Positions 1 to 17,315 of a DNA stretch of 20,053 bases are shown one piece after another. Source of the stretch: a virus; IMG/VR virus record IMGVR_UViG_3300013094_002250, positions 1 to 20,053 of that record. One strand, given 5' to 3'. Both the position numbers and the translations under genes were made by a program. Under the pieces are notes generated by a model. It searched no databases and was not told the origin of the DNA. It was given only the letters and a program-made list of their open reading frames with translations. Each line of letters opens with the position of its first letter. The first letter of the stretch is position 1.

Positions 1-225
1 GGTGCCAGCGCAATGTACAATGACGTCAGGATTATAGTCGTAAATGGCGGCAAGGCTAGCATCGTCAGCAAAATCTCCGATATGATATCCATCAATGTCC
101 TTTAGTGTATGCAAACGTAAGACTCGATCTATTGTAAGAACAGAGTCTCCGTTTTGTTTAAATGCTCGTGCTACATGGCTACCAATGTAGCCACATCCAC
201 CAGTTACTACGATTCGTCTAGTCAT
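1..225 (-). CDS. NAD-dependent sugar-nucleotide epimerase, N-terminal part (runs off the left edge)
   Basis: Reading the minus strand from ATG at 225 gives 75 codons open to base 1, so the gene is cut by the window edge. The N-terminus RRIVVTGGCGYIGSHVARAF is a Rossmann fold with the GxxGxxG NAD(P)-binding motif of the extended short-chain dehydrogenases. An acidic stretch follows (DIDGYHIGDFADD), then a beta strand ending DVIVHCAGT, as in UDP-glucose 4-epimerase (GalE-like) enzymes, where it leads into the AxxAxV region. The family epimerises or dehydrates nucleotide sugars in the cytoplasm. In a phage it would feed glycan or DNA glycosylation, and the glycosyltransferase at 2292-3497 on the same strand is a possible partner. 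The ribosome site is weak (AAAGAA). The start overlaps the upstream small ORF by 8 bases. The family is sure; the exact substrate (GalE or RfbB-like dehydratase) cannot be told because the catalytic YxxxK lies outside. Confidence 0.85.
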   Translation of the reverse strand, partial: MTRRIVVTGGCGYIGSHVARAFKQNGDSVLTIDRVLRLHTLKDIDGYHIGDFADDASLAAIYDYNPDVIVHCAGT

Positions 226-325
226 TATATTTCTTTGTAAGTGCGTGTACCAGCCACAATATACCTAAGTTTATAGCAAAATATATGATTAATATAATAG
301 CAATATTAATATCGGTGTCGCTCAC
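218..325 (-). CDS. Small single-pass membrane protein (35 aa)
   Basis: A GTG at 325 overlaps the stop of the CDGSH gene in a GTGA junction (bases 322-325) and opens 35 codons ending in TAG at 218-220, which overlaps the epimerase ATG by 8 bases. The product begins MSDTDIN and then has one hydrophobic segment, about residues 8-29 (IAIILIIYFAINLGILWLV), followed by a basic tail (HALTKKYND). This is a short acidic head, one membrane helix and a positive end. It fills the gap between two clear genes exactly, with overlaps at both ends, which is the packing used throughout this window. No family is recognised. The evidence is position, start/stop coupling and the clean hydrophobic segment. Confidence 0.6.
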   Translation of the reverse strand: MSDTDINIAIILIIYFAINLGILWLVHALTKKYND

Positions 326-525
326 TCGGGTTTACCGCCTGTACATGATCCGCCATCAAACCAAAGTTCCTGTGCTTGCTTTTGATAGCGTTCTAGTTCT
401 ACTTTACGCTTCCACTCTTCATACTGCTCGGCATTACGACCATGACTACCATCGCAGTAAGGTGGGTGCATTGTTTTCCCGCAACCGCATTTAGGTTGTC
501 CGTTAGTTTCTGGTTTTGCTTGCAC
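322..525 (-). CDS. CDGSH-type iron-sulfur protein (67 aa)
   Basis: The protein carries CGCGKTMHPPYCDGSH, an exact fit to the CDGSH (mitoNEET) consensus C-x-C-x2-(S/T)-x3-P-x-C-D-G-(S/T/A)-H. The 2Fe-2S ligands are C13, C15, C24 and H28. Known members bind a redox-active, pH-labile 2Fe-2S cluster through three Cys and one His. The rest (about residues 30-67) is a charged, probably helical tail (EEWKRKVELERYQKQAQELW). The start is GTG at 525, five bases after a strong GGAGG. A longer reading to 573 would need TTG and has no ribosome site. It overlaps a 38-residue membrane ORF upstream and a 35-residue one downstream, so it may work at the membrane with them. The role in a phage is unknown; electron transfer or cluster donation to the iron-sulfur enzymes of this region is a guess. 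Confidence 0.85.
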   Translation of the reverse strand: MQAKPETNGQPKCGCGKTMHPPYCDGSHGRNAEQYEEWKRKVELERYQKQAQELWFDGGSCTGGKPE

Positions 526-619
526 AAAGGCCTCCGAATTTAATACCAAACCAACAGCATAGCAATGATGCAATTGGTGTAGCGATTACAGTTGTTATAA
601 ACCAACCTAAGTTACTCAT
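503..619 (-). CDS. Small membrane protein (38 aa)
   Basis: The ATG at 619 overlaps the stop of the upstream gene (ATGA, 616-619) and follows AAGGA at a good distance. The 38-residue product has one hydrophobic segment, about residues 5-26 (GWFITTVIATPIASLLCCWF), and a short basic tail ending SKTRN. It overlaps the first 23 bases of the CDGSH gene. No family is recognised. Its reality rests on the ribosome site, the coupled start and the fit between neighbours. Confidence 0.55.
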   Translation of the reverse strand: MSNLGWFITTVIATPIASLLCCWFGIKFGGLCASKTRN

Positions 620-2291: not shown

Positions 2292-3497
2292 CTAAAATTT
2301 GGACTCGTGTGTATGTTTTCGGTAATCGGTTGACATACGACGCCATTGTTCACCTTTGCCCTCTAATATGTCTACGATGCGATCAATGGTGCCATCGGTC
2401 CAATCTGAGATCTTACCCATATTTGGGCTTGGTGCTTGTAACGCACCCCATAACTTGGTCATTGCATCATCTATCGACCAAGGAACGTATAACCGGCTTG
2501 CGTCATTTGCAAAAGTTTCAGGGAAGCTACGATAAGCAGGATATAAAACATTCGATCCAAGCGTATCAGCTTCGGATACAGTATTGGAGACCCAGTCTTG
2601 TAAAGCGCAATTAAACAATACCCTAGTGTCATTAAGCAAAGCATAGTAATCATTTTTTTCTAAATCCTCGTATACAGTCAGCAAGCCACGTGCTTGTAAG
2701 TCACGTGTACGAGCCATATAGCTGTCGTTGTTGCTTTTTAATTTGGCACCTGAAAAGATACAGAACTCAACAGTATTCATTGGGAAGTTATCTCGATGTT
2801 TAGCATGCCATGCTTCGATAAAGTCCATGTAAAAGTCTGGCTGTTTCTCTTGATCCCAACGTGCGGCAAATCCTACACGATATTTGCGATCTATAAATGG
2901 CTTAAGTTCTCCGGGTACACGTGCTCGAACTTCCGCCTTACCAAATGCCAGTCCAGAAATGTTATAGATGTCGCCTTCCCATCCGGCAACCTTCATGTGC
3001 ATGGCCATTTCTTCATTTGATGCTAGGATAATATCCGCAAAACTATCCACCATCTTTTCGTAAAGTCCCATCCACTTTTGCATACCCCAAACATGAACGA
3101 AATCATCAGGGTCAATACTTTGTGCCAAACAGCGAACAGCAATACGAGGACGGTGAGCAGGATCGATTTGATCCATAATGTAAGGCAAGCTCTCGATACC
3201 GGGTTGAAACATGTCTTCAAAGTAGATAACATCTTCATTAGTAACTTCTCCTTGTTTCATCTTTTTAACAAGATTCATTAGCTGACTCATACCAAAGTAA
3301 GTACGACCATGTGCATCTAGCACCTGTCCTGTTACAATAGCTTGATCGTTACTGAGTGTTTCACCTTCAACGATTTCGTAGTTGATACCACGACGTTCAA
3401 ATACAGCACGATTCCACTCTTGTAGTTGTAGAGTGTAACGAGCTTTATAAGGCTCCAACCCCATATACCATAATTTACGCATTTTATATAATCTCAT
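2292..3497 (-). CDS. GT-B-like glycosyltransferase (401 aa)
   Basis: The N-terminal half is mixed alpha/beta (YMGLEPYKARYTLQLQEW; YFEDMFQPGIESLPYIMDQI). The C-terminal half has the usual GT-B donor-domain signs: a strand VGFAARWDQEKQPDFYMDFI like the GRxxxxKG region, then LTVYEDLEKNDYYALLNDTR and a SNTVSEADTLGSNVLYPAY segment resembling the ExxxxG nucleotide-sugar site. Together these suggest a cytoplasmic glycosyl transfer enzyme; the acceptor (DNA base, glycan or protein) is unknown. The start at 3497 shares one base with the stop of the upstream micro-ORF (TAATG), a junction seen repeatedly in this window. An alternative ATG at 3482 (MRKLWYMG) has GAGA about nine bases upstream and could be the true start. 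The partial epimerase gene at the left end may supply sugar donor. The fold assignment is by pattern only. Confidence 0.7.
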   Translation of the reverse strand: MRLYKMRKLWYMGLEPYKARYTLQLQEWNRAVFERRGINYEIVEGETLSNDQAIVTGQVLDAHGRTYFGMSQLMNLVKKMKQGEVTNEDVIYFEDMFQPGIESLPYIMDQIDPAHRPRIAVRCLAQSIDPDDFVHVWGMQKWMGLYEKMVDSFADIILASNEEMAMHMKVAGWEGDIYNISGLAFGKAEVRARVPGELKPFIDRKYRVGFAARWDQEKQPDFYMDFIEAWHAKHRDNFPMNTVEFCIFSGAKLKSNNDSYMARTRDLQARGLLTVYEDLEKNDYYALLNDTRVLFNCALQDWVSNTVSEADTLGSNVLYPAYRSFPETFANDASRLYVPWSIDDAMTKLWGALQAPSPNMGKISDWTDGTIDRIVDILEGKGEQWRRMSTDYRKHTHESKF

Positions 3498-3631
3498 TAA
3501 TCTTTAATAATTTGAAAAAAACTATCAAAAGGTATCGAATAGACTGAAAATCTAATAGCCTCTGTTAAAGTCTTAAAAGATTTCCTAGTTCTACCCGATC
3601 CTATATAGTAACTAACAATATAACTAGTCAC
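3497..3631 (-). CDS. Small hypothetical protein (44 aa)
   Basis: A GTG at 3631 overlaps the end of the 87-residue gene (stop at 3624-3626) and opens 44 codons whose TAA shares a base with the glycosyltransferase ATG (TAATG). It fills what would otherwise be a 126-base gap. The product looks protein-like: it begins MTSYIVSYYIGSGRTRKSF and continues with KTLTEAIRFSVYSIPFDSF, a short beta hairpin followed by a helix. GGA lies six bases before the GTG. No family is recognised. An in-frame ATG further up (3709) would overlap the upstream gene heavily and is less likely. Confidence 0.5.
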   Translation of the reverse strand: MTSYIVSYYIGSGRTRKSFKTLTEAIRFSVYSIPFDSFFQIIKD

Positions 3632-3887
3632 GCGGTTTCCAGTTATTATCACGTGGCTTAAAGTTAGTACGATCACGCTTAGGAGTACGCCACTGATCCC
3701 AAGGTTCACGACCTTTAGTCATTTTAACATACTCGCCATAGGGAGTACGCTCATTGTATAAGTGTTTTTCGTCATACGGATAGCCGTAATCTTGACAAAA
3801 CTGTTTGTATACTTCTAAATCTTCAAAGATTGTTTTTACTTCAGGTTTAAGGCGAAGATACTTAGTAAGCCATTCTGGTTTGGCCAT
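3624..3887 (-). CDS. Small basic hypothetical protein (87 aa)
   Basis: The start is ATG 3887 (MAKPEWLTKYLRLKPEVKTI), preceded by AAAAGGAA at a good distance. A longer reading to 3950 would run into the QueD-like gene and has no ribosome site. The protein has a helical N-terminal half (EDLEVYKQFCQDYGYPYDEK), then HLYNERTPYGEYVKMTKGRE and a basic, disordered-looking tail rich in Lys, Arg, Asn and Trp. The tail composition suggests nucleic-acid binding. Its Tyr/Gly-rich body looks conserved, but I cannot name the family. It is 11 bases downstream of the QueD-like gene and likely co-transcribed with it. Confidence 0.7.
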   Translation of the reverse strand: MAKPEWLTKYLRLKPEVKTIFEDLEVYKQFCQDYGYPYDEKHLYNERTPYGEYVKMTKGREPWDQWRTPKRDRTNFKPRDNNWKPRD

Positions 3888-3898
3888 GATATTTCCTT

Positions 3899-4363
3899 TT
3901 AAATAACGATTGATTGACTTGGACGGGTGAGGTTGTAAGTAATCTGGCATCCGTTTTCACCGTCCTCGGATACTTCGATTGTAACAGCACGATTAGGATA
4001 ACGTGCGGCAATTTGTGTGTATAAGTCATCTGCAATCATTTCGCAAGACTTATAGTTAAGTTCTAAAACTCGACCTTCACCAAAGGGACCGGTCCCAGTG
4101 TAAAGGTTTTCAAGCCAGCGTTTGAACTGGATGAACTCGATGTCCCTGTCATTGTGGAATACATCGATTGACACCCTGAAATGAAAGATATGGCGATGAG
4201 GACTAGCCAAAAACGATACATCATATTCATCTCCTGTTGCTAGTAGCGGGTCAGTTGCTGCCGCTGGGTAGCAATGTATGCCTTCTCGTTGAAACGTAAC
4301 CCAAATCTGTCTTTGTGCCGCGGACATAATACGATCTGTTTGTGCTCTTTGTTCTTGATTCAT
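3899..4363 (-). CDS. QueD/6-pyruvoyl-tetrahydropterin synthase-like protein (154 aa), divergent
   Basis: The core follows the T-fold layout of QueD/PTPS: GIHCYPAAA with a possible first zinc ligand H30, then SPHRHIFHFRVSI with the H-x-H pair H56/H58, NDRDIEFIQFKRWLENL (cf. the xIDFxxLK element), LNYKSCEMIADDLYTQI (cf. NPTxENLA helix) and VTIEVSEDGENGCQI, where E130 or E133 matches the substrate-anchoring Glu strand. QueD makes 6-carboxytetrahydropterin from dihydroneopterin triphosphate on the way to preQ0. Odd point: the catalytic Cys four residues before the H-x-H pair in QueD is Leu here (L52), although C31 is near the first His. It may therefore be a relative with changed chemistry. AAGG precedes the ATG. 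The DpdA/Tgt-like gene upstream in the same unit gives it a pathway context. Confidence 0.6.
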   Translation of the reverse strand: MNQEQRAQTDRIMSAAQRQIWVTFQREGIHCYPAAATDPLLATGDEYDVSFLASPHRHIFHFRVSIDVFHNDRDIEFIQFKRWLENLYTGTGPFGEGRVLELNYKSCEMIADDLYTQIAARYPNRAVTIEVSEDGENGCQITYNLTRPSQSIVI

Positions 4364-4364
4364 G

Positions 4365-4700
4365 TTATGCCTTAAGTTTACTCATTGTAATAATCTTTCC
4401 CAATTCGCGATCGAAGTCCGATCCGTCGGGAATAATATGTAACTCTCCGTTGCCATATTCGTTTGTTTGCATCTGTACAATAGTTCCGCCATTAGCTGGG
4501 GTAATCTTAATAGTCATTGTTTGACTGGATTGTGGACTAGCTGATTGTTGATAAGTGGGGCTGATGTTAATAGAGCCAGCACCATTTCCGCCTAATGTAT
4601 AACTCATCGGTTTATATTCCTGTGGTTTCTTTTCTTTTTCTATAACTAATCTACCGGCAGCTAGCCAGTTTAGTATATCAATACGTAAGTTTTTAAACAT
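4365..4700 (-). CDS. Hypothetical protein (111 aa)
   Basis: It overlaps the end of the radical SAM gene by 8 bases and ends 1 base before the QueD-like start, so it sits inside the putative modification unit. Residues 1-25 are amphipathic (MFKNLRIDILNWLAAGRLVI). Residues 38-60 are a Ser/Gln/Gly-rich linker. Residues 62-110 alternate polar and hydrophobic residues (TMTIKITPANGGTIVQMQTN; GELHIIPDGSDFDRELGKII), probably a small beta domain closed by a helix. There are no cysteines, membrane helices or catalytic motif. It could be a peptide or carrier handled by the neighbouring radical SAM enzyme, or a virion component; nothing in the sequence decides this. Confidence 0.65.
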   Translation of the reverse strand: MFKNLRIDILNWLAAGRLVIEKEKKPQEYKPMSYTLGGNGAGSINISPTYQQSASPQSSQTMTIKITPANGGTIVQMQTNEYGNGELHIIPDGSDFDRELGKIITMSKLKA

Positions 4701-5787
4701 CTAATAGTTTATTTAGATTGGGAAAAGTTGTAGTAAAATTTAATGTCCTGCGTTGATCTATATTGTTCAATGAGTATACAACATTAGCAGGATCTTTGTC
4801 AAACGGTTTGGTAAGAAAATCCCGACAATTCTGAATACTTTGTCCAAATGTTGTTGCGGTTTCTGTATAGGTATTTAGGTAAGCAGTAATCTTATCTAAA
4901 TCTTTTATATTACGAGCATCTAAAAACTTTGGCCCAGTTACTGTATGTACTGCTATTTTATTCAGATCAACTCCTAGACTATTAATATATAATCCAGTTT
5001 CAATAATAGTGTCGGCAGTAAGTAAGAAGTAGTTCATGGTAATACCCACATTGTCCCACTCCGTTAATAACTGTTTTAAGTTACGTTCAAACTCAGACCA
5101 TACTCCAGGATAGCGTATGTATTCAAACTGGGCACCGGTGGCTTCAACACTTACTTCCCATTTAACATTTTTAAACTGTTTGATTTGTTCGTAAATCTTG
5201 TTTGTTAGGTTACTAGCATTGGTGGTAATACGTACTAGACAATCGGGATTGATTTGATGTAGTTCTTCTAGTAGCTCTAGATTTTCTTTGATTAACAGTG
5301 GTTCGCCACCGGCTAGATATACTTCTTTAACATTAGATAAGTTAGCAAAGGCATACTCTTTTAACTTTACAAAATGTTCTCGATCGGCATTGACTTGTTG
5401 GCTTAGTTCCCGTGCCCATTGGCTACTTAATGTTGGACTACAGTAAACACAGGCATAGTTACAAGTATTAGACCAACGTAGATCTAACTGCGTTAAACTA
5501 TGTTTACCGGCGTAATCAATGTTGACATCTTGGTGTAGTTCAAGTTGATAAGCACGGTTACTAAACAATGGATCTATTTGTTCGACACTTTTACATTGAT
5601 TACAGGCGGTCGGCCAAGCATCGTAAGTTAAACTTGTACGTATGTCTTGATTAGTGTAACCATCAAGAATATCTTTGATTGGTTGGAACTTTAGATTTCC
5701 AAGGGGAATAGAGCTAACAGCACAGTTCTTAACCATACCATCGGGTTCAACTGCAATACCTGTCCACGGTAGCGGACATTTGATCAT
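4693..5787 (-). CDS. Radical SAM protein with N-terminal SPASM/twitch-like cysteines (364 aa)
   Basis: The radical SAM 4Fe-4S motif C-x3-C-x2-C is at C109, C113 and C116 (SNTCNYACVYC), followed by the SAM-binding GGEP (VYLAGGEPLL) and later strands (WEVSVEATGAQFEY). Before the barrel, residues 1-70 carry C4, C22, C62 and C65 with the look of an auxiliary-cluster (SPASM/twitch) segment: PLPWTGIAVEPDGMVKNCAV and PTACNQCKSVEQ. Family members make a 5'-deoxyadenosyl radical and often modify peptides, proteins or small molecules. It is not QueE-like: it is much longer and has extra cysteines. The start overlaps the 171-residue gene by ATGA. The second radical SAM protein at 15676-16830 is a clear paralogue (both have LD-RWSNTCN, CVYC and SSQWA). 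The substrate is unknown; context suggests base modification or maturation of a neighbour. Confidence 0.85.
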   Translation of the reverse strand: MIKCPLPWTGIAVEPDGMVKNCAVSSIPLGNLKFQPIKDILDGYTNQDIRTSLTYDAWPTACNQCKSVEQIDPLFSNRAYQLELHQDVNIDYAGKHSLTQLDLRWSNTCNYACVYCSPTLSSQWARELSQQVNADREHFVKLKEYAFANLSNVKEVYLAGGEPLLIKENLELLEELHQINPDCLVRITTNASNLTNKIYEQIKQFKNVKWEVSVEATGAQFEYIRYPGVWSEFERNLKQLLTEWDNVGITMNYFLLTADTIIETGLYINSLGVDLNKIAVHTVTGPKFLDARNIKDLDKITAYLNTYTETATTFGQSIQNCRDFLTKPFDKDPANVVYSLNNIDQRRTLNFTTTFPNLNKLLDV

Positions 5788-6299
5788 CGTATTACTTCAT
5801 CTTGTGTATATCGAGACCAATCTGTGAACACGCTACGATCACGCAGTTCGTGTATGCTATGGCACCAAACACCGGGGTTTGTCTTAGCAAAATCTTTATC
5901 ATCTAGTTTAAGAGTAGCATTGTATCCTAGCAGTTGAATATAAGGCAACTTAACTGAGATCATTGGAATAAAGTTATTGTACTCGATTAAACAACCTTCA
6001 GCTAGGCCTTCGGCGGCAGAGGAATCTAAATCTAATGTACATAGTATACCGGCTTGTAGACACTCGGTAATCATACCTTCCCATTCACGCCAGGTATCTC
6101 CATCGTTAACTTCTGGATTAGGAAAACTTTGATTGGCGCCAAAATAAACATGGGTACAGTTATTATTCTTAACTAAGTTTAAAATAACACCGGCATCTTG
6201 AATACCTACTACAAATAGTGTGCGATGTCCATATGCTGGACTGTGTTCTACTTCCTTGCCTACAAAGAAGTTTACCTGTTCGTGACCTGCTCTAACCAT
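5784..6299 (-). CDS. Hypothetical protein (171 aa) between DUF465-like and radical SAM genes
   Basis: An alpha/beta soluble protein with distinct motifs: NFFVGKEVEHSPAYGHRTLF near the start, CTHVYFGANQSFPNPEVNDG in the middle, then LCTLDLDSSAAEGLAEGC and a C-terminal half with ISVKLPYIQLLGYNATLKLD. Several His, Glu and Asp residues (E17, H19, H24) could bind metal or substrate. There is no membrane helix or signal. The start overlaps the coiled-coil gene by 8 bases and the stop overlaps the radical SAM start by ATGA, so it is probably translated together with both. I do not recognise a named family. The tight linkage to a transglycosylase and a radical SAM enzyme suggests a helper or partner enzyme in the same modification. 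Confidence 0.75.
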   Translation of the reverse strand: MVRAGHEQVNFFVGKEVEHSPAYGHRTLFVVGIQDAGVILNLVKNNNCTHVYFGANQSFPNPEVNDGDTWREWEGMITECLQAGILCTLDLDSSAAEGLAEGCLIEYNNFIPMISVKLPYIQLLGYNATLKLDDKDFAKTNPGVWCHSIHELRDRSVFTDWSRYTQDEVIR

Positions 6300-6489
6300 G
6301 TGTTTTACGCTCTCTGAATGCTAGTTCTTCTTTAAGTTTAACAATATCGTCTTTAATATGCAACCGTTGTTTTTTCAACTTGTTTAATAGTTCATCCTGA
6401 AATGCGCCTGTGCTTTCCAAACCATCAATCTTTTTATCAAGTTTGGCATGCTCATCTTCTAAATGTTTAATACGTGCTGGGATTGTCAT
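6292..6489 (-). CDS. DUF465/YdcH-like coiled-coil protein (65 aa)
   Basis: The sequence has the DUF465 pattern, HxxLDxxIxxLE followed by LKKQRLHIKDDIVKL: two helices forming a hairpin coiled coil (LEDEHAKLDKKIDGLESTG; FQDELLNKLKKQRLHIKDDI). The length matches the family's usual 60-75 residues. The cellular function of the family is not established. The start overlaps the transglycosylase stop (ATGA at 6486-6489) and is preceded by GGAGGCAGA. The stop overlaps the next gene by 8 bases. It may be a scaffold or partner in this gene unit. Confidence 0.75.
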   Translation of the reverse strand: MTIPARIKHLEDEHAKLDKKIDGLESTGAFQDELLNKLKKQRLHIKDDIVKLKEELAFRERKTHG

Positions 6490-8036
6490 TCTGCCTCCAA
6501 TGCGTCTAGTTTTGATTCGTCTAATCCAGAATCATCAATATGATGTTCTTCAACTTCTTCACTGCCTTCTACTTCAAATAACTGATCAAACATAGCATTA
6601 CCATTAATAGCCTTTTTGCCTTTAAATCCACGTGTGCCAATAATCTCGGTCCAGTATGTACTGTAGGATTCGATTAAGTCCAAGGCCTTTTGTTTGTCTG
6701 TTTCGGCAAAGATAGCTTCTACCAGATGCTCAAAGTATTCTCCACCTGGGCCCGAGCTACGCATCATAGCAGGGTGAGCACCAGCATCAAAGCGACGATT
6801 GGCTTCTTGTACGGCAGTCAAATGCATCCATACATTATGTCCCATTAGTAGAGCATAGCTAAAGCTGTCCCAACTTGTTTTGCCTTCTTTACCGTTTTTA
6901 TTAAGGTCGCCCGGTTTGTAAATGCACACATCCTTCATCTTCATCATGTCGCTTAATGGACTATCTTCCCAACGTGGGTAAATGCCATCGGCTACAACTC
7001 CGTCTGACCATTTTCGTGTGTCTGTTGCGTATTTTTTGTCATCTGCACTAGGCGCCATGCGGTATGACCATTTACCGTTGTCAGGAAATACGTTCTCGAA
7101 GTAGACTTGGCCGTTGGCAGTTGCCAAAAACGGACTAGCGCAATCAAAGCTAATAGTGAAACTAGGATTGACATATTTTCTAATGTTCCTTTGTATAACT
7201 GTGAGCAAGACTGCCCACTCTAGTTTACTTGTGCCCAAGAAGTGCATCCAATCATGCCGACCTTCTTGTAGCAAGTTATCGTGACGTAGAGTAACTAATC
7301 GCTTAAGGATTAAGTGTACGTCACACATGTTCTGGCCTCCCATAGCCCAACCATTGAAGTGTGTATCTGGATACTTTGCAGGATCACAGTAGTCCTTCAT
7401 AGTTTCATACCAACGATCTGCGTCGGGGTGATTAGCACCTTGTAATACGTTAAGGATCTTAACCCCGCCATTAGCAACACCCTTGCGGTGTTTCATGAAG
7501 TATTCGTTGTTAAACTTTGTAGCATCTACAGCTTCTTCTAAAGTTTTAATACCACACTTGGCACTAGCGTTTTTATCATGTATAACCCAAGTTGGAATAT
7601 CAAGGGTCATACCATAGTCAGCGATGCCGTCCAGCCAAGCTAAAACTTGTTCACGTTTTTTCTGGGCCTTCGGGCAACCTGAGCCGGCCTTCCAATCGCC
7701 TTCCCATAATCCTTTAGCAATCTGGAATCCACCAGAGTCACCAAGCATTAGTGTGTTGGGATCGCGATTGCGTACCATATCCTCTGACCAGTCCTGCTTA
7801 TTAAGGTCAAGGTTTGCGTGGCCGCCGGAGTAAAGCGACCACTTATATGGGAACAATGCTTTCTGGTCATTTAGCCAGTTCATCTGTTCCATATCTGTTA
7901 AGCCCTGCGGAAAACGTGCAGGATCTACATATTCTTCGTTACGTTGTTTGCCTATAAAGGTAGCATAAAAGCCACTGATCGCTGGTAAGAACACAGCATA
8001 GTCTGATTGTTTAGCAGTTAAGTTATCTTGGGTCAT
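6486..8036 (-). CDS. dpdA: Guanine transglycosylase-like protein, DpdA/Tgt family (516 aa)
   Basis: The protein follows the tRNA-guanine transglycosylase barrel: MLGDSGGFQIAKG with general Asp D100 in DSGGFQ, TLDIPTW (about 144-150), ILNVLQG (194-200), GWAMGGQ (229-235), HFLGTSK (265-271), and ISFDCASPFLATANGQVYF with the nucleophile D298 in FDC, aligning with FDCVxPTRxxRNG of bacterial Tgt. The C-terminal C-x-C-x2-C zinc site of bacterial Tgt is not visible, and a long insert and tail (residues 320-516) differ from tRNA enzymes. In phages such proteins (DpdA) exchange guanine in DNA for a 7-deazaguanine such as preQ0, which resists host restriction. The linked QueD-like and radical SAM genes support this. 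There is no clear ribosome site; it starts 4 bases after the sulfotransferase stop, so coupling is likely. A tRNA target remains possible. Confidence 0.85.
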   Translation of the reverse strand: MTQDNLTAKQSDYAVFLPAISGFYATFIGKQRNEEYVDPARFPQGLTDMEQMNWLNDQKALFPYKWSLYSGGHANLDLNKQDWSEDMVRNRDPNTLMLGDSGGFQIAKGLWEGDWKAGSGCPKAQKKREQVLAWLDGIADYGMTLDIPTWVIHDKNASAKCGIKTLEEAVDATKFNNEYFMKHRKGVANGGVKILNVLQGANHPDADRWYETMKDYCDPAKYPDTHFNGWAMGGQNMCDVHLILKRLVTLRHDNLLQEGRHDWMHFLGTSKLEWAVLLTVIQRNIRKYVNPSFTISFDCASPFLATANGQVYFENVFPDNGKWSYRMAPSADDKKYATDTRKWSDGVVADGIYPRWEDSPLSDMMKMKDVCIYKPGDLNKNGKEGKTSWDSFSYALLMGHNVWMHLTAVQEANRRFDAGAHPAMMRSSGPGGEYFEHLVEAIFAETDKQKALDLIESYSTYWTEIIGTRGFKGKKAINGNAMFDQLFEVEGSEEVEEHHIDDSGLDESKLDALEAE

Positions 8037-8040
8037 TGTA

Positions 8041-8709
8041 TTATTCGTAAAATGTTACACTATTGATTAAAGCATAATCACGACTGTATGCTTGTTTAAA
8101 TACTTCAAAGTATTTAGGTCTGCTGAGTAAATCCCGCCAAATATTTTTTGATTGATTAATAGCATCAACATTTGGTTGCACTTCTTGTTCGTTAACTGGT
8201 GCTGGCGGTGTAGTACTAGTAAATCCATGACTGTCAAAAAACCGTTTCATTTTTGTTGAAAGGTCGTTGTCGCACCAAAAGTACACAGCATGAGTTAAAT
8301 CTAATCCATCAATAAAGTTATATTGCGGAGTAGTATGCTCATCGGTTAAAAAGTATTCAAAGTTTTCAAACACAGAATCTATAGTGTTTTCGGCTACAGC
8401 AGTAGGCAAACCATCTGCCATTGGGCATTGTGATAACCAACGCTGTACTGGATCTCTAACTATGATAACAGGAGTTAGTCCTTTAGAATCTTCTGTGGTA
8501 AAGTTATGTGAATCCCAGCGATCATTTAAGTTTGTACCTAAATCACTGATATACTTACGCATCCACATACTAGCACACTTAGGTGTATTATAGTAAGTTA
8601 ATCCACGTGAACGATTGATCAGTCCCTGTCCATAAACATGACTACTAGTCCAAGTTGCTCCAGGAAAAAACTTATCCACGATGTATGCCCGACAGTTGCT
8701 TGCTACCAT
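8041..8709 (-). CDS. Sulfotransferase-like protein, copy 2 (222 aa)
   Basis: It has the two PAPS-binding signs of sulfotransferases: TPKCASMWMRK (42-52) in the 5'-phosphosulfate loop position and VIIVRDPVQRWLSQC (81-95) in the 3'-phosphate position. It shares more with its upstream neighbour: TDEHTTPQYNFI against FDEHTARQVYFI, and at the C-terminus PKYFEVFKQAYSRDYALI against PMYLEKIKKFYHLDYRVI. The pair looks like a tandem duplication. Known enzymes move a sulfuryl group from PAPS to hydroxyls or amines of carbohydrates, proteins or small molecules; the target here is unknown. It overlaps copy 1 by 38 bases and precedes the transglycosylase by 4. The start at 8709 has only a weak ribosome site; a GTG about 11 codons on is an alternative. 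Confidence 0.75.
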   Translation of the reverse strand: MVASNCRAYIVDKFFPGATWTSSHVYGQGLINRSRGLTYYNTPKCASMWMRKYISDLGTNLNDRWDSHNFTTEDSKGLTPVIIVRDPVQRWLSQCPMADGLPTAVAENTIDSVFENFEYFLTDEHTTPQYNFIDGLDLTHAVYFWCDNDLSTKMKRFFDSHGFTSTTPPAPVNEQEVQPNVDAINQSKNIWRDLLSRPKYFEVFKQAYSRDYALINSVTFYE

Positions 8710-9322
8710 ACAGTCTAACTGACCATATTACTCTGTAGTCAAGATGATAAAACTTTTTAATCTTTTCAAGATACATAGGATTATCTAATAGTGTTCTAAA
8801 GAAAGTTGCATATTTTTTTCTAACGGGATTACCAATGGTAGTATGTTGATAAACACGGTTAGTGTAATCTACATCAGCATAGCCTTGTTCCTTTAACCAA
8901 CTGGTAAAGTTTGCCCTGTAAGAATCGTCTGCCATCATAAAAGTACAACGATTTGGGTCAATGTTTCTGATAAAATATACTTGTCTTGCAGTATGCTCAT
9001 CAAACTCAACTTGTTCCATAATAAAATCAATGAATGATTTATTAAAATCATCAAGATCAAAGTCGGGATGATACAGTGAAAAATATTCTGCAATACCGCT
9101 TACCCACCGTTCTACAGGATCACGTAATACAATCAAAGAATGATAGTTTGTTAAATGGTCTAAGTGATAGTTTTTAACCACCCACCCTAGTTCTTCTAAG
9201 TTGGGTTTAGTCCAACTGCTGGCATTCTTAGAAATGTTTACATACATTAGATCATTTGTAGGAGCAATCCAACAAGTTCCTAATGTATGATTCTTTGGCT
9301 GCCAGGGTTGATGAAATAGCAT
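8672..9322 (-). CDS. Sulfotransferase-like protein, copy 1 (216 aa)
   Basis: YVNISKNASSWTK (27-39) fits the 5'-phosphosulfate loop, but with Asn/Ala in place of the usual Thr/Gly. SLIVLRDPVERWVSGIAEY (62-80) fits the 3'-phosphate site of Sulfotransfer_2-type proteins. FDEHTARQVYFI and the C-terminal DNPMYLEKIKKFYHLDYRVI recur in copy 2 just downstream. The ATG shares one base with the clamp stop (TAATG), so it should be made with the sliding clamp and the transglycosylase. It is short for the family (usually 250-300 residues), like many phage and marine bacterial relatives. The acceptor is unknown. Confidence 0.75.
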   Translation of the reverse strand: MLFHQPWQPKNHTLGTCWIAPTNDLMYVNISKNASSWTKPNLEELGWVVKNYHLDHLTNYHSLIVLRDPVERWVSGIAEYFSLYHPDFDLDDFNKSFIDFIMEQVEFDEHTARQVYFIRNIDPNRCTFMMADDSYRANFTSWLKEQGYADVDYTNRVYQHTTIGNPVRKKYATFFRTLLDNPMYLEKIKKFYHLDYRVIWSVRLYGSKQLSGIHRG

Positions 9323-10056
9323 TACTTAGTTTGTGCTGGTAGTTTGTAGTAGTAAGTTGCAAGTCCAGAGTCAACGGTAATCTCTGCAACACCGTCGTCG
9401 CTAATCTTAAATGTCTTGTCGCCCGGCAAGCTAAGGATTGAGTTCACTACTGCAACTGGCCAGTTTAACTGTTTAGTCAACGTACCCGATGTTGTAGCAA
9501 ATGTAAATGATCCTGCGTGGCTACTAGAATCACCAAAGAAAAACTTTAGTTCGCCATTTTCTGTTTTGCTTGAAAACACAGTAGCGTCGGAGTGTGCCAT
9601 TGCTTGAAACTTTAACTTTTGAATGCTTAGTGCTGTAGGATTAACTTCTACTGCCCACTTAACTGGTTTCATATTAACGTTCTTAAGTTGATCGTTAATA
9701 ACGCTTGTGCTCATAAAGCGATAGTTGTTCTTAAAGTCGCCTGTTTTGTTTTCAAACTGGATGCTAGCTGGCACATCATTGCCTTCTGCATCTTTTTGTG
9801 TTTGAACAGTAATCTTAGCATCTTCCTTGTATTCAGGAATGTTAAGGATAGTATTCAAACGATCCAAGTTAGGCATACCAAATACGCCTTCAAAGCCGGC
9901 AACCGGTGCTTTGAAATCTGCGTTCAAAATAACAGTTTTAGTCTGCTGATCAAATGCGTTGATTGCGGTACTGGTTTTAGTTCCAGTAATCTTAATCATA
10001 TTAATAACGCCTAAGCCATAAGTGTGTTGTACAATATCTTTTAAATAATCAAACAT
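9322..10056 (-). CDS. 45: DNA polymerase sliding clamp, T4 gp45-like (244 aa)
   Basis: Length and order match T4 gp45 (228 aa). An N-terminal segment precedes INMIKITGTKTSTAINAF. The inter-strand motif GMPNLDRLNTILNIPEYKED parallels the gp45 segment YDLNGFLGILSLV. A second repeat follows (VEVNPTALSIQKLKFQAMA), then FFFGDSSSHAGSFTFATT and a C-terminal YYYKLPAQTK strand. Clamps form a trimeric ring that tethers the polymerase and, in T4, activates late transcription. The polymerase at 11057-13717 ends in a matching clamp-binding peptide. The ATG at 10056 follows CGGAGAAAACT, a good ribosome site, so the internal Met20 is not the start. It has its own upstream promoter (10078-10106) in the 46-base gap. 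Confidence 0.85.
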   Translation of the reverse strand: MFDYLKDIVQHTYGLGVINMIKITGTKTSTAINAFDQQTKTVILNADFKAPVAGFEGVFGMPNLDRLNTILNIPEYKEDAKITVQTQKDAEGNDVPASIQFENKTGDFKNNYRFMSTSVINDQLKNVNMKPVKWAVEVNPTALSIQKLKFQAMAHSDATVFSSKTENGELKFFFGDSSSHAGSFTFATTSGTLTKQLNWPVAVVNSILSLPGDKTFKISDDGVAEITVDSGLATYYYKLPAQTK

Positions 10057-10077: not shown

Positions 10078-10106
10078 AGTGTATAGGTTTATTTAGAAAA
10101 AGTCAA
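10078..10106 (-). promoter_or_regulatory. Promoter upstream of the sliding clamp gene
   Basis: In the short gap before the clamp the minus strand has TTGACT (10106-10101) and, 17 bases on, TACACT (10083-10078), or TATACA at 15 bases: a sigma70-like -35/-10 pair. CTAAATAA lies between them (CTAAATA at 10096-10090) and resembles the T4-type late promoter box TATAAATA. The TTGA overlaps the methyltransferase stop. The 46-base gap is unusually long for this window, which supports a regulatory role. Confidence 0.5.
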
Positions 10107-11053
10107 GGAGCGATATCTTTTATTTCGCCCAATACTTGATCGGCTTTAACCGTAGTAAGCCGACCAGTTTTACGAACTTCAATCCAGCTAACAGTTGTGC
10201 CTTCTCCACGTATGTCTCGTTCATATACAATGCTATATCCAAGACTTTCGCACATGGGCAACAACATACTTTTTGGAATATAACTCATCCAGCGATTGTC
10301 AGCATATCCAGCACATTCCGGTATGTCGCCATTGTTGTAACTAAACATAAAGGTACCGCCGGGACGTAGTAAATCTCGGACTGATTTTAAATATTCTTTT
10401 ACTGTATCTAAGCTACGATAATTCAAATAGTTCCAGCAAAATACAAAGTTCATCTGCCCTTGTGGTAACTCTGACATATCCTGATCTTTAATCAAATATG
10501 GTCTAATTCTATTTTGATAATCTGTATTAAATTTTGATACAGTAGAATCAATAAACTCTCTGTAATGGTCAACTATGTATAGCGGATCGCTCGCTACCAA
10601 ATGTGGTGTCCATTCTCCATCTCTGCAACCAATCTCCAGTGCAGGATATTCCCAAGAAGTATACAGTTGTATTCTGCCTAATATTTCCTTGAGAACCAAA
10701 TCAGATAAATCCATTACACGAACATTGCGAATAATACTAGTAGCTTCGGCATCTACACGTATTTCAAGGCTGTAGTTTTCACTAAAGAACTTAGTACCTT
10801 CATTCATTATTTCATGATCTATAACATTGATAACCAGATCAAACTGTTTTTTATTTTCGTTAAATCTTTCTTGTACCTGATGAACATCCGTGATTAGATT
10901 TTCTAACATAACTCGGTGATCTGCATCTCCGCGCTCTTCGACTATAGAAACAAGTTTAGCTTGCAAATGATCAAGTTCATTTCCTACGGGTCTAGGATCG
11001 TAAGCCTGTGTTAGTTGTTCTCGAAGATTTACTAGTTCTGTTAGCTTTTTCAT
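10103..11053 (-). CDS. Class I SAM-dependent methyltransferase-like protein with N-terminal helices (316 aa)
   Basis: Residues 1-90 are long charged helices (coiled-coil-like; VNLREQLTQAYDPRPVGN, QVQERFNENKKQFDLVINVI). From about 137 a Rossmann methyltransferase core begins: PALEIGCRDGEWTPHLV (motif I, ExGxxxG-like, 137-153), DPLYIVDHYREF (motif II acidic loop, 156-167), MNFVFCWNYLNY (motif IV-like) and LLRPGGTFMFSYNNGDIPEC (post-motif region). The pattern is typical of small-molecule, tRNA or wobble-type methyltransferases. There is no DPPY/NPPY motif of DNA adenine or N4-cytosine enzymes and no PCQ motif of 5mC enzymes. It starts 3 bases after the polymerase stop, an unusual place between polymerase and clamp. 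The target is unknown. Confidence 0.75.
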   Translation of the reverse strand: MKKLTELVNLREQLTQAYDPRPVGNELDHLQAKLVSIVEERGDADHRVMLENLITDVHQVQERFNENKKQFDLVINVIDHEIMNEGTKFFSENYSLEIRVDAEATSIIRNVRVMDLSDLVLKEILGRIQLYTSWEYPALEIGCRDGEWTPHLVASDPLYIVDHYREFIDSTVSKFNTDYQNRIRPYLIKDQDMSELPQGQMNFVFCWNYLNYRSLDTVKEYLKSVRDLLRPGGTFMFSYNNGDIPECAGYADNRWMSYIPKSMLLPMCESLGYSIVYERDIRGEGTTVSWIEVRKTGRLTTVKADQVLGEIKDIAP

Positions 11054-11056
11054 AAG

Positions 11057-13717
11057 TTACTCAAAAGTAAATAAATCGTCAAAAGTTGTTTTAATATCTG
11101 TGCTTTCTGCAATCCGCCACTCTAGCACACCTAGTAAGTTTTCTACCTTTTGATCAACAATAGTTGATTCCATTGTTGAATCGTCAAATGGCAAGTCTTT
11201 AAACCATTGCGGAATATGACTTTCGTCTGTTGGGTAGCCTACACTAGTATATCCCACTGGATTGTCTTTGAGTTTACATACAACAGTTTTCATACCGTCT
11301 ACAATAGTAGTTGAGTAGTTGTCGCCATGCATACGCTTAAGGTTATTCCAGTTCATTGCGGCACGAACGTGACCGGGCATGTTGGCTTTGCCTAGGCGTG
11401 CTTCTTCTGCGGCATACTTAGTCAAGTTGTTTACACGCTTAGGTGTACCCTTTTCCCAAGCCGGACGTTCAGCAAACTTCAACTTGAACTCTTTGACTTT
11501 GGCAATAATAGCTTCCTTCTCAGCGCCAGTTAGGACATCCATTAGCAGTTCGCTTAAGAACTCTTGTACAATCTTAGGTGTATCACTACGCTTTAGGTCT
11601 AGGCCCATAGCTTTCATCTTACCCGGTTTTCCGTGTGTGTCTAAACGCACACCTTCCATGTCGTAGATTAATACTCCATAGCGTTTTTTCTTAATGAATA
11701 GGCCCTTACTAGCAATAAGCTCACGTCCGCCTTTGATAATGGCGCCCATTTCACGTGGACAATGACAAGCACGTTCCATAAACGCAGGGAACGAGTCATT
11801 TACGCTCTCGGCAATAGTATCGTATAACTGTACACAGATTTCTCTGTTCCACTCCATGTTACCTTTAGCTACTTCCTCTTTGATTTGCGGCCACGCTGAG
11901 AAATAGACCGAGTCCGTATCGCCATAGATGATTGCGGCGCCGACGTGGTTGTAGTCGCCCGTAATAGCTTCGTTGACATGGCTGTCCATGTGTTTGGCAA
12001 TGATACGCCCAGTAAGTGTCGTGCTCTGGCCAATGCGCTGGTCAAAGAAGCGGCAACCCGGATTGAGGATCGCCCCATATAGCGAATTGAGGTTAATCTT
12101 TTTAACGAGCTGTCTTTTGTCCCAGAACGCTGTATCTTCCTTAGATGTTGCGGTTTTCTTTTTAGCTTGCATTTCTTTACGTTCGGCATACCATCTCTCC
12201 AATAACCCGGGAATAATACCCTTTGTGTCATATTTAAATATTGTACCGTTAGCACTGAACGTCCATGGCTGGCGACTGTCAAATATCAAACGCCATACAT
12301 CCTTTGCCGACATTACATCACTGCTTCCATCTTCCCAGTCTATGGTAATCTCTGTACCTATATCACCATTCATTACCGCTTGATATTCTAGTGTACCAAA
12401 CATGTTTTCCCAAGCATCAGCAAAACTAGCACCGCTATCCATCTTTTCACGGATGTAGTGGTCTGTCATTACTGGACGGAGTTGCCCGACGATTGTTTCT
12501 GGCCCCATGTTAAGAGCACGGATCGCTGAGGGGTAGAGCGAGTTAATGTCGATTGCGCCAACATATTCGTGCATTCCTTTTTTGGGGAAAGCAACGTAGG
12601 CACCTGCCGCTTGCGTATTTCCTTGGTCATCTCTAGATCTCCTGTTAGGCACAACCATACCACGGCTGTGTGCTTCGTTAATAATAGCTTGTTCTGTAAC
12701 AGCCACAGCACCCATAGTGGTCTGTAGCAATACTGTATTATCGTGTGCAAGTTCGTTAGCTAGATCTAGGAAGCGTAACTTCTTATCTAGTTTAGCCAAC
12801 AACAAGGTATCTTGTCTATTATAGTCAATAAACTTTTCAAATTCTTTATTGTACAGTTGGTCCAGCGTACCTTCGTATGCTAACTTACTACCGACTTCTT
12901 CGTACTCGCCGATAGCATCCAAGGAGTAGCTATGACGTTCTTCGTATGTGTATTTGCGATACAGTTGCATGTAGTCTAGGTGTACACGACCAATCAAGTC
13001 AAATGTAAGTTGTTCTGCACCAAAGCGTTCAAACATACGTTGCTTGGGCATTTGTCCCCACAAGCATAGTCTACGTGTGTCATCTTTACTTAATACACGA
13101 GTAATACGCATAGTGGTATAGGGAATATCAAAACCTTCTGAGTTCCAACCTGATAAAATATCTGCATCTTCGATCAAGTCTAAGAACGTGTTAAGCATAT
13201 CTTCTTCACGTTCAAATAAGAAACAGTTGTCAAACTTTTTACAAATCTCTTCGGCGGTTTCCCAACTATAACTCTTAGGCGGCACAACTAACGTGACCAT
13301 CTTGTCCATCCAGTCTAAGTAGACAGAGATACTAGTAATAGGATTAAAGGGATCTTCGGGTTTACTGTAGCCTCGTTCTGGGTCGAAATCGACCTCAATA
13401 TCGAAAAAGGCTGTTTGTAGTTTTGGCGACATAGCACCTAGATAATGTTCTTCTAAGCAACGGAAAATAGGATTAATATCCGACTCCCATAGGCGCTTGC
13501 CCGAGTTTACTCGTTGTTCTTTATGGAACTCTTTACCGTTACGTGTACTAAAGCGTGACACGGGTGTGTCGTAGATAGTGCGGAACTTGCCGCGGGGATC
13601 ATCATAGTAAAATACATAGTTAGCGGGATATTCTTTGTATACCCGTTCGCCATCAACTCGTTCTACTACGTGAATTCTGTCTTTGTCTCTATCAAAGAGA
13701 GCGTCAATGTAACTCAT
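11057..13717 (-). CDS. 43: Family B DNA polymerase, T4 gp43-like (886 aa)
   Basis: Full-length replicative polymerase with proofreading. Exonuclease motifs: FFDIEVDF (D106, E108), GWNSEGFDIPY (D197) and YNRQDTLLLAK (Y299, D303). Polymerase motifs: A, DINSLYPSAIR (D390); B, KKINLNSLYGA (540-549); C, YGDTDSVYF (D600, D602); then FIKKKRYGVLIYDMEG. The C-terminus IKTTFDDLFTFE resembles the T4/RB69 clamp-binding tail SLFDMFDF, which fits the gp45-like clamp downstream. Start choice: ATG 13717 (MSYIDALFDRDKDR) lies three bases after GGAGAAAT, whereas a start 10 codons up has no ribosome site. Length (886) is close to T4 gp43 (898). The start overlaps the stop of an upstream micro-ORF (ATGA). Clamp-loader genes 44/62 and regA, next to it in T4, are not in this window. 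Confidence 0.97.
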   Translation of the reverse strand: MSYIDALFDRDKDRIHVVERVDGERVYKEYPANYVFYYDDPRGKFRTIYDTPVSRFSTRNGKEFHKEQRVNSGKRLWESDINPIFRCLEEHYLGAMSPKLQTAFFDIEVDFDPERGYSKPEDPFNPITSISVYLDWMDKMVTLVVPPKSYSWETAEEICKKFDNCFLFEREEDMLNTFLDLIEDADILSGWNSEGFDIPYTTMRITRVLSKDDTRRLCLWGQMPKQRMFERFGAEQLTFDLIGRVHLDYMQLYRKYTYEERHSYSLDAIGEYEEVGSKLAYEGTLDQLYNKEFEKFIDYNRQDTLLLAKLDKKLRFLDLANELAHDNTVLLQTTMGAVAVTEQAIINEAHSRGMVVPNRRSRDDQGNTQAAGAYVAFPKKGMHEYVGAIDINSLYPSAIRALNMGPETIVGQLRPVMTDHYIREKMDSGASFADAWENMFGTLEYQAVMNGDIGTEITIDWEDGSSDVMSAKDVWRLIFDSRQPWTFSANGTIFKYDTKGIIPGLLERWYAERKEMQAKKKTATSKEDTAFWDKRQLVKKINLNSLYGAILNPGCRFFDQRIGQSTTLTGRIIAKHMDSHVNEAITGDYNHVGAAIIYGDTDSVYFSAWPQIKEEVAKGNMEWNREICVQLYDTIAESVNDSFPAFMERACHCPREMGAIIKGGRELIASKGLFIKKKRYGVLIYDMEGVRLDTHGKPGKMKAMGLDLKRSDTPKIVQEFLSELLMDVLTGAEKEAIIAKVKEFKLKFAERPAWEKGTPKRVNNLTKYAAEEARLGKANMPGHVRAAMNWNNLKRMHGDNYSTTIVDGMKTVVCKLKDNPVGYTSVGYPTDESHIPQWFKDLPFDDSTMESTIVDQKVENLLGVLEWRIAESTDIKTTFDDLFTFE

Positions 13718-13836
13718 ATTTCTCCAAATGCCACTTTTAGCTGGCACAACTCTGCTTGTTCTTTAAGTGAACGACTCTTAATAATATTTACTCCTAGTAG
13801 TATAGCAGTTAAATATTCGTATGTCAAACTATTCAA
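13714..13836 (-). CDS. Candidate micro-ORF upstream of DNA polymerase (40 aa)
   Basis: The reading frame ending in TGA at 13714-13716 overlaps the polymerase ATG by four bases (ATGA), the junction type used by many real genes here. It runs back through the 100-base intergenic space as protein-like sequence (YLTAILLGVNIIKSRS then LKEQAELCQLKVAFGEI) and could start at TTG 13836, which has AAGGA eight bases upstream. That start lies antisense inside the first bases of the plus-strand SGNH gene. The alternative is the tail of a longer gene whose front was lost when the SGNH gene arrived. No family is recognised; small N-terminal hydrophobic segment, amphipathic C-terminal helix. Confidence 0.35.
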   Translation of the reverse strand: MNSLTYEYLTAILLGVNIIKSRSLKEQAELCQLKVAFGEI

Positions 13837-15598: not shown

Positions 15599-15679
15599 TT
15601 AGGACATCATTCCGGGGCACGACTCCCATAATGTCCAGCCCAGCAGCCGGGCATACACTAGTAACGCATAACGTCCTAA
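15599..15679 (-). promoter_or_regulatory. Structured RNA leader between radical SAM and 2OG-oxygenase genes
   Basis: In the minus-strand transcript a 9-base stem GGACAUUAU/AUGAUGUCC (15636-15628 with 15610-15602) holds an inner GGG/CCC hairpin. A second hairpin GCCCGG-CUG-CUGGGC lies upstream (15652-15638). A long-range stem UUAGGACGU/AUGUCCUAA (15679-15671 with 15607-15599) would enclose both but uses the same 3' strand as the first stem, so the two folds exclude each other. Each of the three stems contains one G-U pair that would be an A-C mismatch in the plus-strand RNA, so the element is read from the minus strand. It is more GC-rich than its surroundings. The radical SAM stop codon lies in the long stem. 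No known riboswitch, ribozyme or tRNA pattern was recognised. Confidence 0.55.
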
Positions 15680-16830: not shown

Positions 16831-17315
16831 TAAGTATTTAAGAAGGTATCCGCTAACCGTTTACATAATTCACGTAGTTTTGGATTGTTGGTTTCTTCAA
16901 CACCATCTTCTTTTTGGCTAGGATCTTTGTAACCACAATAGACATTTTCTAAACCAATATCGTATCTGGCTATCAAGTCTGTACAGCTTTCTCCATGGCG
17001 TTCTGCCATTGGGCGATTGCAAGGACTTAGTGTAGTAACAATCATACAACGACTGTCGGCTACTTCACAAGCATTAAGTGCCGCACGTTCTGCATGTATA
17101 TGTAGTCCTTCTGAGTCTACGTGATTAACTCCGTATACTTCTTCGCCGTTGGGTAGTATAACACAAGCCGCTACTGCCGCTACCATGCCCCAATGATCGG
17201 GATCAGTGGCTTGGCCGTTGAGAACTAACTCGCAACAACGTGCAAGTATGAGATCTAAGTCTTCTTGAGATTTAAGCTGGTGAGAAAGGATTTCGTTTAT
17301 AATCACTGTCGTCAC
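16830..17315 (-). CDS. RibD-type zinc deaminase (161 aa)
   Basis: It has the cytidine-deaminase fold signature: HAERAALNAC with zinc ligand H74 and proton shuttle E76, and TLSPCNRPMAERHGESCTDL with C99 and C111 as the other zinc ligands. The C-x11-C spacing is wider than the PCxxC of dCMP/cytidine deaminases and closer to RibD (PCSHxGxxPPC). The downstream YCGYKDPSQ recalls the xVVAxxDPNP of RibD deaminase domains. RibD deaminates a pyrimidine in riboflavin synthesis; the reductase half is absent. GTG 17315 gives MTTVIINEI; a GTG three codons on (17306) has AGGTG upstream and may be used. It is joined to the radical SAM gene by TAATG. A nucleotide deaminase of modified-base metabolism is the main alternative. 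Confidence 0.7.
   Translation of the reverse strand: MTTVIINEILSHQLKSQEDLDLILARCCELVLNGQATDPDHWGMVAAVAACVILPNGEEVYGVNHVDSEGLHIHAERAALNACEVADSRCMIVTTLSPCNRPMAERHGESCTDLIARYDIGLENVYCGYKDPSQKEDGVEETNNPKLRELCKRLADTFLNT

Follow-up and report, generated by a model that had tools for sequence, protein, structure and literature searches.

A probable QueC-free 7-deazaguanine DNA-modification operon with a conserved glycosyltransferase in large-genome phages

We analyzed the viral DNA record IMGVR_UViG_3300013094_002250 of IMG/VR. The window is the whole record, 20,053 bases, and genes at either end may be cut off. An earlier note had described six of its genes, at positions 3,899 to 8,036, as a putative 7-deazaguanine DNA-modification operon in which a DpdA-type transglycosylase might use 7-cyano-7-deazaguanine (preQ0) taken from the host. 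The window is best read as a piece of a large phage genome with part of such an operon, one that lacks QueC. The genes on which the argument turns are the following, with lengths in amino acids (aa).

6486..8036, minus strand: putative DpdA-type guanine transglycosylase, 516 aa, with DSGGFQ at D100 and FDCAS at D298
6292..6489, minus strand: DUF465-like protein, 65 aa, optional (PF04325, E 2e-11; 23/80 loci)
5784..6299, minus strand: p171, a 171-aa protein, core gene of window-type loci (145/160 QueD-like loci)
4693..5787, minus strand: optional SPASM/twitch radical SAM enzyme, distinct from QueE (NF033640, E 3e-67, above cut-off; 12/80 loci)
4365..4700, minus strand: 111-aa protein, optional (15/80 loci)
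3899..4363, minus strand: QueD-like (DpdL-like) protein, 154 aa, predicted QueD fold, catalytic Cys lost
3624..3950, minus strand: 108-aa reading frame between the DpdL-like and glycosyltransferase genes, conserved in window-type loci (65/84 loci)
2292..3497, minus strand: putative GT4-like glycosyltransferase, 401 aa, conserved together with the DpdL-like gene
1..225, minus strand: GalE-type nucleotide-sugar epimerase, N-terminus, cut by the record end (PF01370, E 8e-12)
9322..10056, minus strand: candidate sliding clamp (phrog_12062), just upstream of DpdA, from its position and one weak PHROG match
11057..13747, minus strand: B-family DNA polymerase (phrog_262, E 8e-194), C-terminus FDDLFTFE

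The six open reading frames (ORFs) from the transglycosylase to the QueD-like gene, their motifs and their overlapping starts all lay on the minus strand where the earlier note had placed them. Successive ORFs overlap by 4, 8, 4 and 8 bases, and the final junction is a 1-base gap. The polymerase gene and the module genes downstream of it share this one strand.

The 516-aa transglycosylase had no match in Pfam, PHROGs or NCBIfam. For this protein, the QueD-like protein and the clamp candidate, neither phmmer nor profiles run against PDB sequences returned a match of weight; the folds of the first two were therefore predicted with AlphaFold2, and the predictions were built on IMG/VR sequences alone. 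The transglycosylase model, built from 41 homologs, had a predicted local distance difference test score (pLDDT) of 89 and took the form of a (beta/alpha)8 barrel of the tRNA-guanine transglycosylase (TGT) type. Its best PDB matches in Foldseek were TGTs (E 1.8e-7). Against the TGT structure 2ash, 306 residues were aligned within residues 11–426 of the model, with a VIA Z of 19.4 and a root-mean-square deviation of 4.3. D100, D146 and D298 were invariant across the 41 diverse relatives, and the catalytic motifs are thus not a matter of chance. In profile alignment with DpdA2 of the phage nt-1 type (hhalign, probability 94.5), the alignment ran through all three catalytic aspartate regions; with a larger set the probability was 90.3, and controls stayed below 1. 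The similarity is detected between profiles only, since the DpdA2 profile misses the window's family and vice versa. The TGT zinc motif CxCxxC was found in 0/60 members, and DpdA2 lacks it as well. From the predicted fold and the profile comparison, we take the protein to be a guanine transglycosylase of a new, remote DpdA2-like subfamily, here named DpdA-W. DpdA and DpdA2 insert deazaguanines into DNA (PMC6884629).

Relatives of DpdA-W were found on freshwater and marine contigs, and among cultured phages in PA5oct/Paride-type Pseudomonas phages (37%), Sinorhizobium phage Phosso (29%) and Vibrio phage 2.275.O (27%). The neighbors of the 2.275.O homolog include QueF, a COG1738 transporter, QueC and FolE, an independent link of DpdA-W to deazaguanine chemistry. 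A second genomic link is given by the FolE, QueD and QueE genes downstream in long relatives. The assignment of a DpdA-type transglycosylase to a 7-deazaguanine DNA-modification locus, with its predicted TGT fold, conserved aspartates and downstream synthesis genes, is supported.

Around 80 DpdA-W relatives, the constant genes were the polymerase, the clamp candidate, DpdA, p171, the QueD-like gene and the glycosyltransferase (GT). Relatives with the whole module lie on contigs of several hundred kb, up to 525 kb. Genes for FolE, true QueD and true QueE lie 5–22 kb downstream in each of the seven long relatives. No QueC above the cut-off was found in these (0/7), in the loci fetched via the QueD-like gene (0/160) or in those fetched mainly via the GT (0/121), giving 0/281 loci in all; the earlier note's observation that QueC is missing is supported. 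Six fetched loci cover the block from end to end, with the genes arranged as DpdA-p171-DpdL-GT-FolE-QueD-QueE on one strand. A GalE-type epimerase followed the GT in 7/7 long relatives. Between GalE and FolE, 6/7 long relatives also carry a half-size DegT/DnrJ/EryC1-like protein (209 aa; L101:9269-9898), which is too short for a normal aminotransferase.

The window stops within the epimerase gene (1-225), ahead of the expected position of FolE. QueE and FolE are indeed absent from this record, as had been reported, but only owing to its being a fragment of 20,053 bases; the relatives encode both past the point where it ends. Since FolE, QueD and QueE lie there, preQ0 from the host need not be assumed as the source, and QueC has apparently been replaced. 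The functional unit differs from, and exceeds, the six genes first described, which are a local arrangement. These six were not conserved together: only 12/80 relatives had the radical SAM gene in the interval from DpdA to the QueD-like gene, and the DUF465 gene (23/80) and the 111-aa gene (15/80) were likewise optional. By the standard that the earlier note had itself set, this refutes the six-gene unit.

The earlier note had called the radical SAM enzyme unlike QueE and had suggested that the unit may decorate the base. The former view was borne out. The protein scores above the cut-off of the N-terminal twitch family NF033640, QueE models match it weakly only, and a separate QueE is encoded in relatives; its identification as QueE was ruled out. 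A decorating role for this enzyme is not supported, given its rarity and the radical SAM matches scattered over 2–9 sites per long contig. No match to the protein was found in the cultured-phage collection. A second SPASM/twitch radical SAM gene of the same NF033640 family lies at 15676-16830 (minus strand). Neither p171 nor the 111-aa protein matched Pfam, PHROGs or NCBIfam. p171 also occurs in PA5oct/Paride and ACP17, and showed no detectable relationship to QueE, QueC, FolE, DpdL, DpdA or GT in profile comparison. PDB matches of p171 to designed "Cake" propellers were dismissed; they rest on short repeats, and no stretch passes alone.

The AlphaFold2 model of the 154-aa QueD-like protein (pLDDT 87) had E. 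coli QueD as its top PDB match (probability 1.00, TM 0.70 by target length), with Z values of 11.5 for 6-pyruvoyltetrahydropterin synthase (PTPS) and 10.4 for QueD. HxH, HxYP and SCE were invariant in all 66 non-redundant members of the family; the catalytic Cys expected a few residues before HxH was present in 0/66, against 22/22 true phage QueDs. The protein is thus predicted to have the QueD/PTPS fold with a histidine metal site and yet, judging by these residues, not to be a QueD. The QueD-like label was right as to the fold but not as to the QueD step, for which a separate true QueD is present. In the true phage QueDs (e.g., L086:3778-4254), the Cys-to-His motif was found in 22/22, and in those inspected it reads C-x3-HGY; E. 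coli QueD has HGH at this place, and one metal histidine of the phage proteins seems to be replaced.

Among 14 complete phages, the QueD-like gene was present in 11, and the remaining three (nt-1, pf16 and 2.275.O) were the three with a solid QueC. Vibrio phage D479 has the QueD-like gene and one weak partial QueC-like match. From this complementarity and the absence of QueC in 281 loci, the QueD-like protein would stand in for QueC after 7-carboxy-7-deazaguanine (CDG). Its homolog in Cellulophaga phage phiST, CGPG_00067 (E 6e-11), adjoins QueD, QueE and FolE. In 2023, Cui et al. reportedly put forward DpdL as the enzyme that decarboxylates CDG in phages like phiST, and the phiST cluster is said to be a CDG/7-deazaguanine route with DpdL. 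The phiST homolog may be the published DpdL, and we refer to the family as DpdL below. That the window's DpdL-like protein decarboxylates CDG is somewhat favored. In Vibrio phage Bakedbeans, the DpdL-like domain of gp176 (L089:5212-6363) lies behind a 260-aa N-terminal region, for which no family match was found.

The ORF at 2292-3497 is assigned by its sequence to the GT4-like (GT-B) family. Its profile matched GT group 1 structures (7ec7 etc., E 5e-4), its homologs matched PF00534 below the Pfam cut-off (E 2.5e-4 and 1e-3), and it carries R..EK / E..E signatures, with R, E and K conserved. Among 50,697 phage records, clear relatives were found in PA5oct-type phages, Phosso, ACP17 and X1; a relative in BUCT-ZZ01, a cultured phage with the window-type GT, was found by profile. 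All of these GT-bearing cultured phages have DpdL. The transglycosylase of ACP17, X1 and BUCT-ZZ01 is DpdA2 and that of the other GT phages is DpdA-W; the GT-DpdL pair is therefore common to two transglycosylase families. The two genes track each other both ways. The GT was present in 149/160 DpdL loci, and where a GT locus had sufficient sequence upstream, DpdL lay there in 102/104; in ACP17 it lies just downstream. In Paride and PA5oct (loci L081 and L082), the cluster reads DpdA-GT-DpdL-truncated epimerase-QueE and is annotated mostly as hypothetical proteins.

A full-length relative of the epimerase (L101:8359-9309) scored 299.8 bits on TIGR01179, with a cut-off of 262.3. GalE lay within 2.5 kb downstream of the window-type GT in 87/100 loci, versus 1/53 for the PA5oct-type GT. 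BUCT-ZZ01 has a full epimerase elsewhere in its genome, and in PA5oct a truncated epimerase lies inside the cluster. A small CDGSH-type iron-sulfur protein (322-573, minus strand; weak PF09360) adjoins the epimerase in the window and also occurs in the relatives L102 and L103. Three long contigs bearing the GT, and as many complete phages bearing it, showed no thymidylate-synthase/dCMP-hydroxymethylase gene. Over 13 GT-bearing records, a gene of the thymidylate-synthase (TS) family was present in six and absent from seven, one of which is a 96-kb fragment; a hydroxymethyl-pyrimidine as GT acceptor is accordingly disfavored. The GT, which lies outside the six genes of the earlier note, is a better candidate for decorating the base than the radical SAM enzyme. 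Whether it acts on deazaguanine is evenly poised in our judgment.

A link to replication is suggested by gene order and by C-terminal peptides. In 213/216 loci, the 3 kb upstream of DpdA contained a gene of the clamp-candidate family; one member matched PHROG "DNA polymerase processivity factor" (E 7e-5), and one record is annotated as such. The C-terminal motif FxxLF was found in 52 of 60 non-redundant DpdA-W members, against 4.2 expected by shuffling, and reads FDQLF in the window. Polymerases of DpdA-W loci had a FxxLF-type end in 162/169 relatives, and DpdA2 C-termini read LDELFE in ACP17, LEELFG in X1 and LDSFFD in BUCT-ZZ01. Such a C-terminus was not seen in the other module proteins. 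T4-type polymerases bind their clamp via such C-terminal peptides. A clamp-tethered base-exchange enzyme would be a testable idea, not a result.

We propose the following mechanism. FolE, QueD and QueE, encoded past the record end in relatives, would convert GTP to CDG, which is established chemistry. The DpdL-like protein would then act on CDG instead of QueC, most likely by decarboxylation to 7-deazaguanine. The DpdA-type transglycosylase would swap guanine in DNA for 7-deazaguanine after replication, probably tethered to the replisome sliding clamp by its C-terminal FxxLF peptide. The GT4 glycosyltransferase would subsequently add a sugar to the inserted base; in the window type, the GalE-type epimerase would supply it, probably with a UDP-hexose such as UDP-galactose. 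That the DNA contains deazaguanine made without QueC is, in our judgment, likely. For the scheme as a whole, with clamp-tethered exchange and glycosylation by the GT, the balance is level.

Several points weigh against this scheme. Most of the IMG/VR loci are related to each other, and their counts are not independent. Folds, motifs, gene content and order, the complementarity of QueC and DpdL, and the GT-DpdL linkage are computed; the chemistry is predicted, from the DpdL step and the action on DNA to the tethering on the clamp, the kind of sugar and where it is attached. The relation of DpdL to QueD is weak by sequence alone, and the sliding-clamp identity of the 9322..10056 product is weak, with one weak PHROG match and one record's annotation. 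Across lineages, the GT-DpdL link amounts to about five cultured groups. Five DpdL phages (phiST, RHph_I1_18, Bakedbeans, D479 and Ahp1) have no GT, and glycosylation is therefore no necessary consequence of DpdL. The association of GT type with GalE is confounded with lineage. The scheme does not explain the role of p171. Finally, the DpdL product would carry a hydrogen at C7 and thus offer no C7 oxygen for ordinary O-glycosylation. C-glycosylation is conceivable because the C7 carbon is nucleophilic. A GT4 enzyme fed by GalE might thus join a sugar to the C7 exposed by decarboxylation, on a base placed in newly replicated DNA by the clamp-tethered transglycosylase, giving a C-linked sugar on a purine; we hold this to be a long shot. 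The duller alternatives would be a sugar linked through nitrogen or, on CDG, a carboxyl ester.

A competing account is that the DNA carries the deoxynucleoside of 7-deazaguanine or CDG (dDG or dCDG), made without QueC and left plain, and that the GT and epimerase serve a pyrimidine, protein or surface glycan and are neighbors by synteny. DpdL works without GT, as the phages lacking GT show; other sugar genes occur in these genomes, and six of the 13 GT-bearing records have a TS-family gene. We nevertheless consider this account rather unlikely: the GT adjoins DpdL in distant phages with two transglycosylase families and differing gene orders, DpdL lay upstream in 102/104 GT loci that had been picked independently of DpdL, and the TS-family gene is missing from the other seven records, including the 96-kb fragment. 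The enzyme itself might instead act on tRNA, with the operon serving to increase queuosine, or a similar base of tRNA, in infected cells. The nearest solved folds are TGTs, but the best sequence relative is DpdA2, whose phage nt-1 has 7-deazaguanine in its DNA (PMC6884629). With the zinc motif in 0/60 members, QueC missing, and the gene always beside polymerase and clamp-like genes with a C-terminal peptide in common, a tRNA substrate is highly improbable.

Two further accounts concern the precursor. In the model drawn from the earlier note, DpdA inserts preQ0 from the host, and the radical SAM enzyme decorates it. That enzyme's gene is within the window's overlapping gene run, the phage lacks QueC, and preQ0 is often made by hosts; the 12/80 frequency of the gene, the FolE, QueD and QueE encoded by the phage in all long relatives, and the complementarity of DpdL to QueC make this model very doubtful. 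Alternatively, the base inserted by DpdA is CDG or preQ0 made by the host, and the QueD-like protein merely boosts production of 6-carboxytetrahydropterin (CPH4) or is structural. Its fold is that of QueD, and a host QueC could turn phage CDG into preQ0. However, the catalytic Cys is lost in 66/66 members though a complete true QueD is also encoded, and the phages that lack the gene are precisely the three in which QueC is solid; we judge this account improbable.

The proposed system, QueC-free deazaguanine DNA with a sugar added by the GT, can be set beside known ones. The known phage preQ0 pathway comprises FolE, QueD, QueE, QueC and DpdA, and QueC is absent in the window type. The DpdA2 pathway of Vibrio phage nt-1 (Hutinet et al. 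2019, PMC6884629) shares with the window type a TGT-like DNA transglycosylase, FolE and QueE/QueD, and neither transglycosylase has CxCxxC; unlike the window type, nt-1 carries QueC, while genes for the DpdL-like protein and the GT are missing from it. The bases reported for nt-1 are preQ0-derived (PMC6884629). Phage phiST resembles the window type in having FolE, QueD and QueE without QueC, together with the homolog of the 154-aa protein, but lacks DpdA-W, GT, p171 and the epimerase. Acidovorax phage ACP17, Xanthomonas phage X1 and Synechococcus phage BUCT-ZZ01 have, like the window, DpdL and GT beside FolE and QueE and no solid QueC, and differ in using DpdA2; the role of the glycosyltransferase in their clusters appears to be undescribed. 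In T-even phages, a phage GT likewise glycosylates a DNA base after replication, as proposed for the window, but the base is 5-hydroxymethylcytosine; here the acceptor would be a base-exchanged purine analogue, and the TS-family hydroxymethylase is missing from 7/13 GT-bearing records. Galactosyl-queuosine of animal tRNA is a glycosylated 7-deazaguanine, but in RNA and with a cyclopentenediol as acceptor.

We conclude that the window carries part of a real, widely distributed QueC-free 7-deazaguanine DNA-modification operon with a conserved glycosyltransferase, of which no description was found. We infer that the DNA probably contains 7-deazaguanine made by the QueC-free route and glycosylated, and the operon product is probably an undescribed base; a literature search of partial coverage found no report of glycosylated deazaguanine DNA. 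Deazaguanine DNA is known mostly from QueC-containing phages. The QueC-free version with a built-in GT occurs in hundreds of metagenomic contigs and in cultured phages such as Paride and PA5oct, where it is annotated mostly as hypothetical proteins. If the proposal is true, it would add a glycosylated purine to phage DNA chemistry, explain a large set of jumbo-phage genes of unknown function and bear on the resistance of jumbo phages to restriction and CRISPR. A possible coupling of a base-exchange enzyme to replication is suggested as well. The cultured phages with the gene set allow immediate testing.

Other genes of the window lie on the same strand. Between the polymerase and the clamp candidate (10103-11053) is a methyltransferase-domain protein (PF13489) with relatives in 79/84 loci. 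Two short ORFs lie between the clamp candidate and DpdA (8041-9322), one matching Sulfotransfer_2 (PF03567) and the other weakly sulfotransferase-like. In the region 15676-17315, the second radical SAM gene adjoins one for a protein of 161 aa that has a zinc region of the cytidine-deaminase type (PF00383). A ferritin-like (Dps-type) protein is encoded at 18146-18583 (PF00210, E 4e-23).

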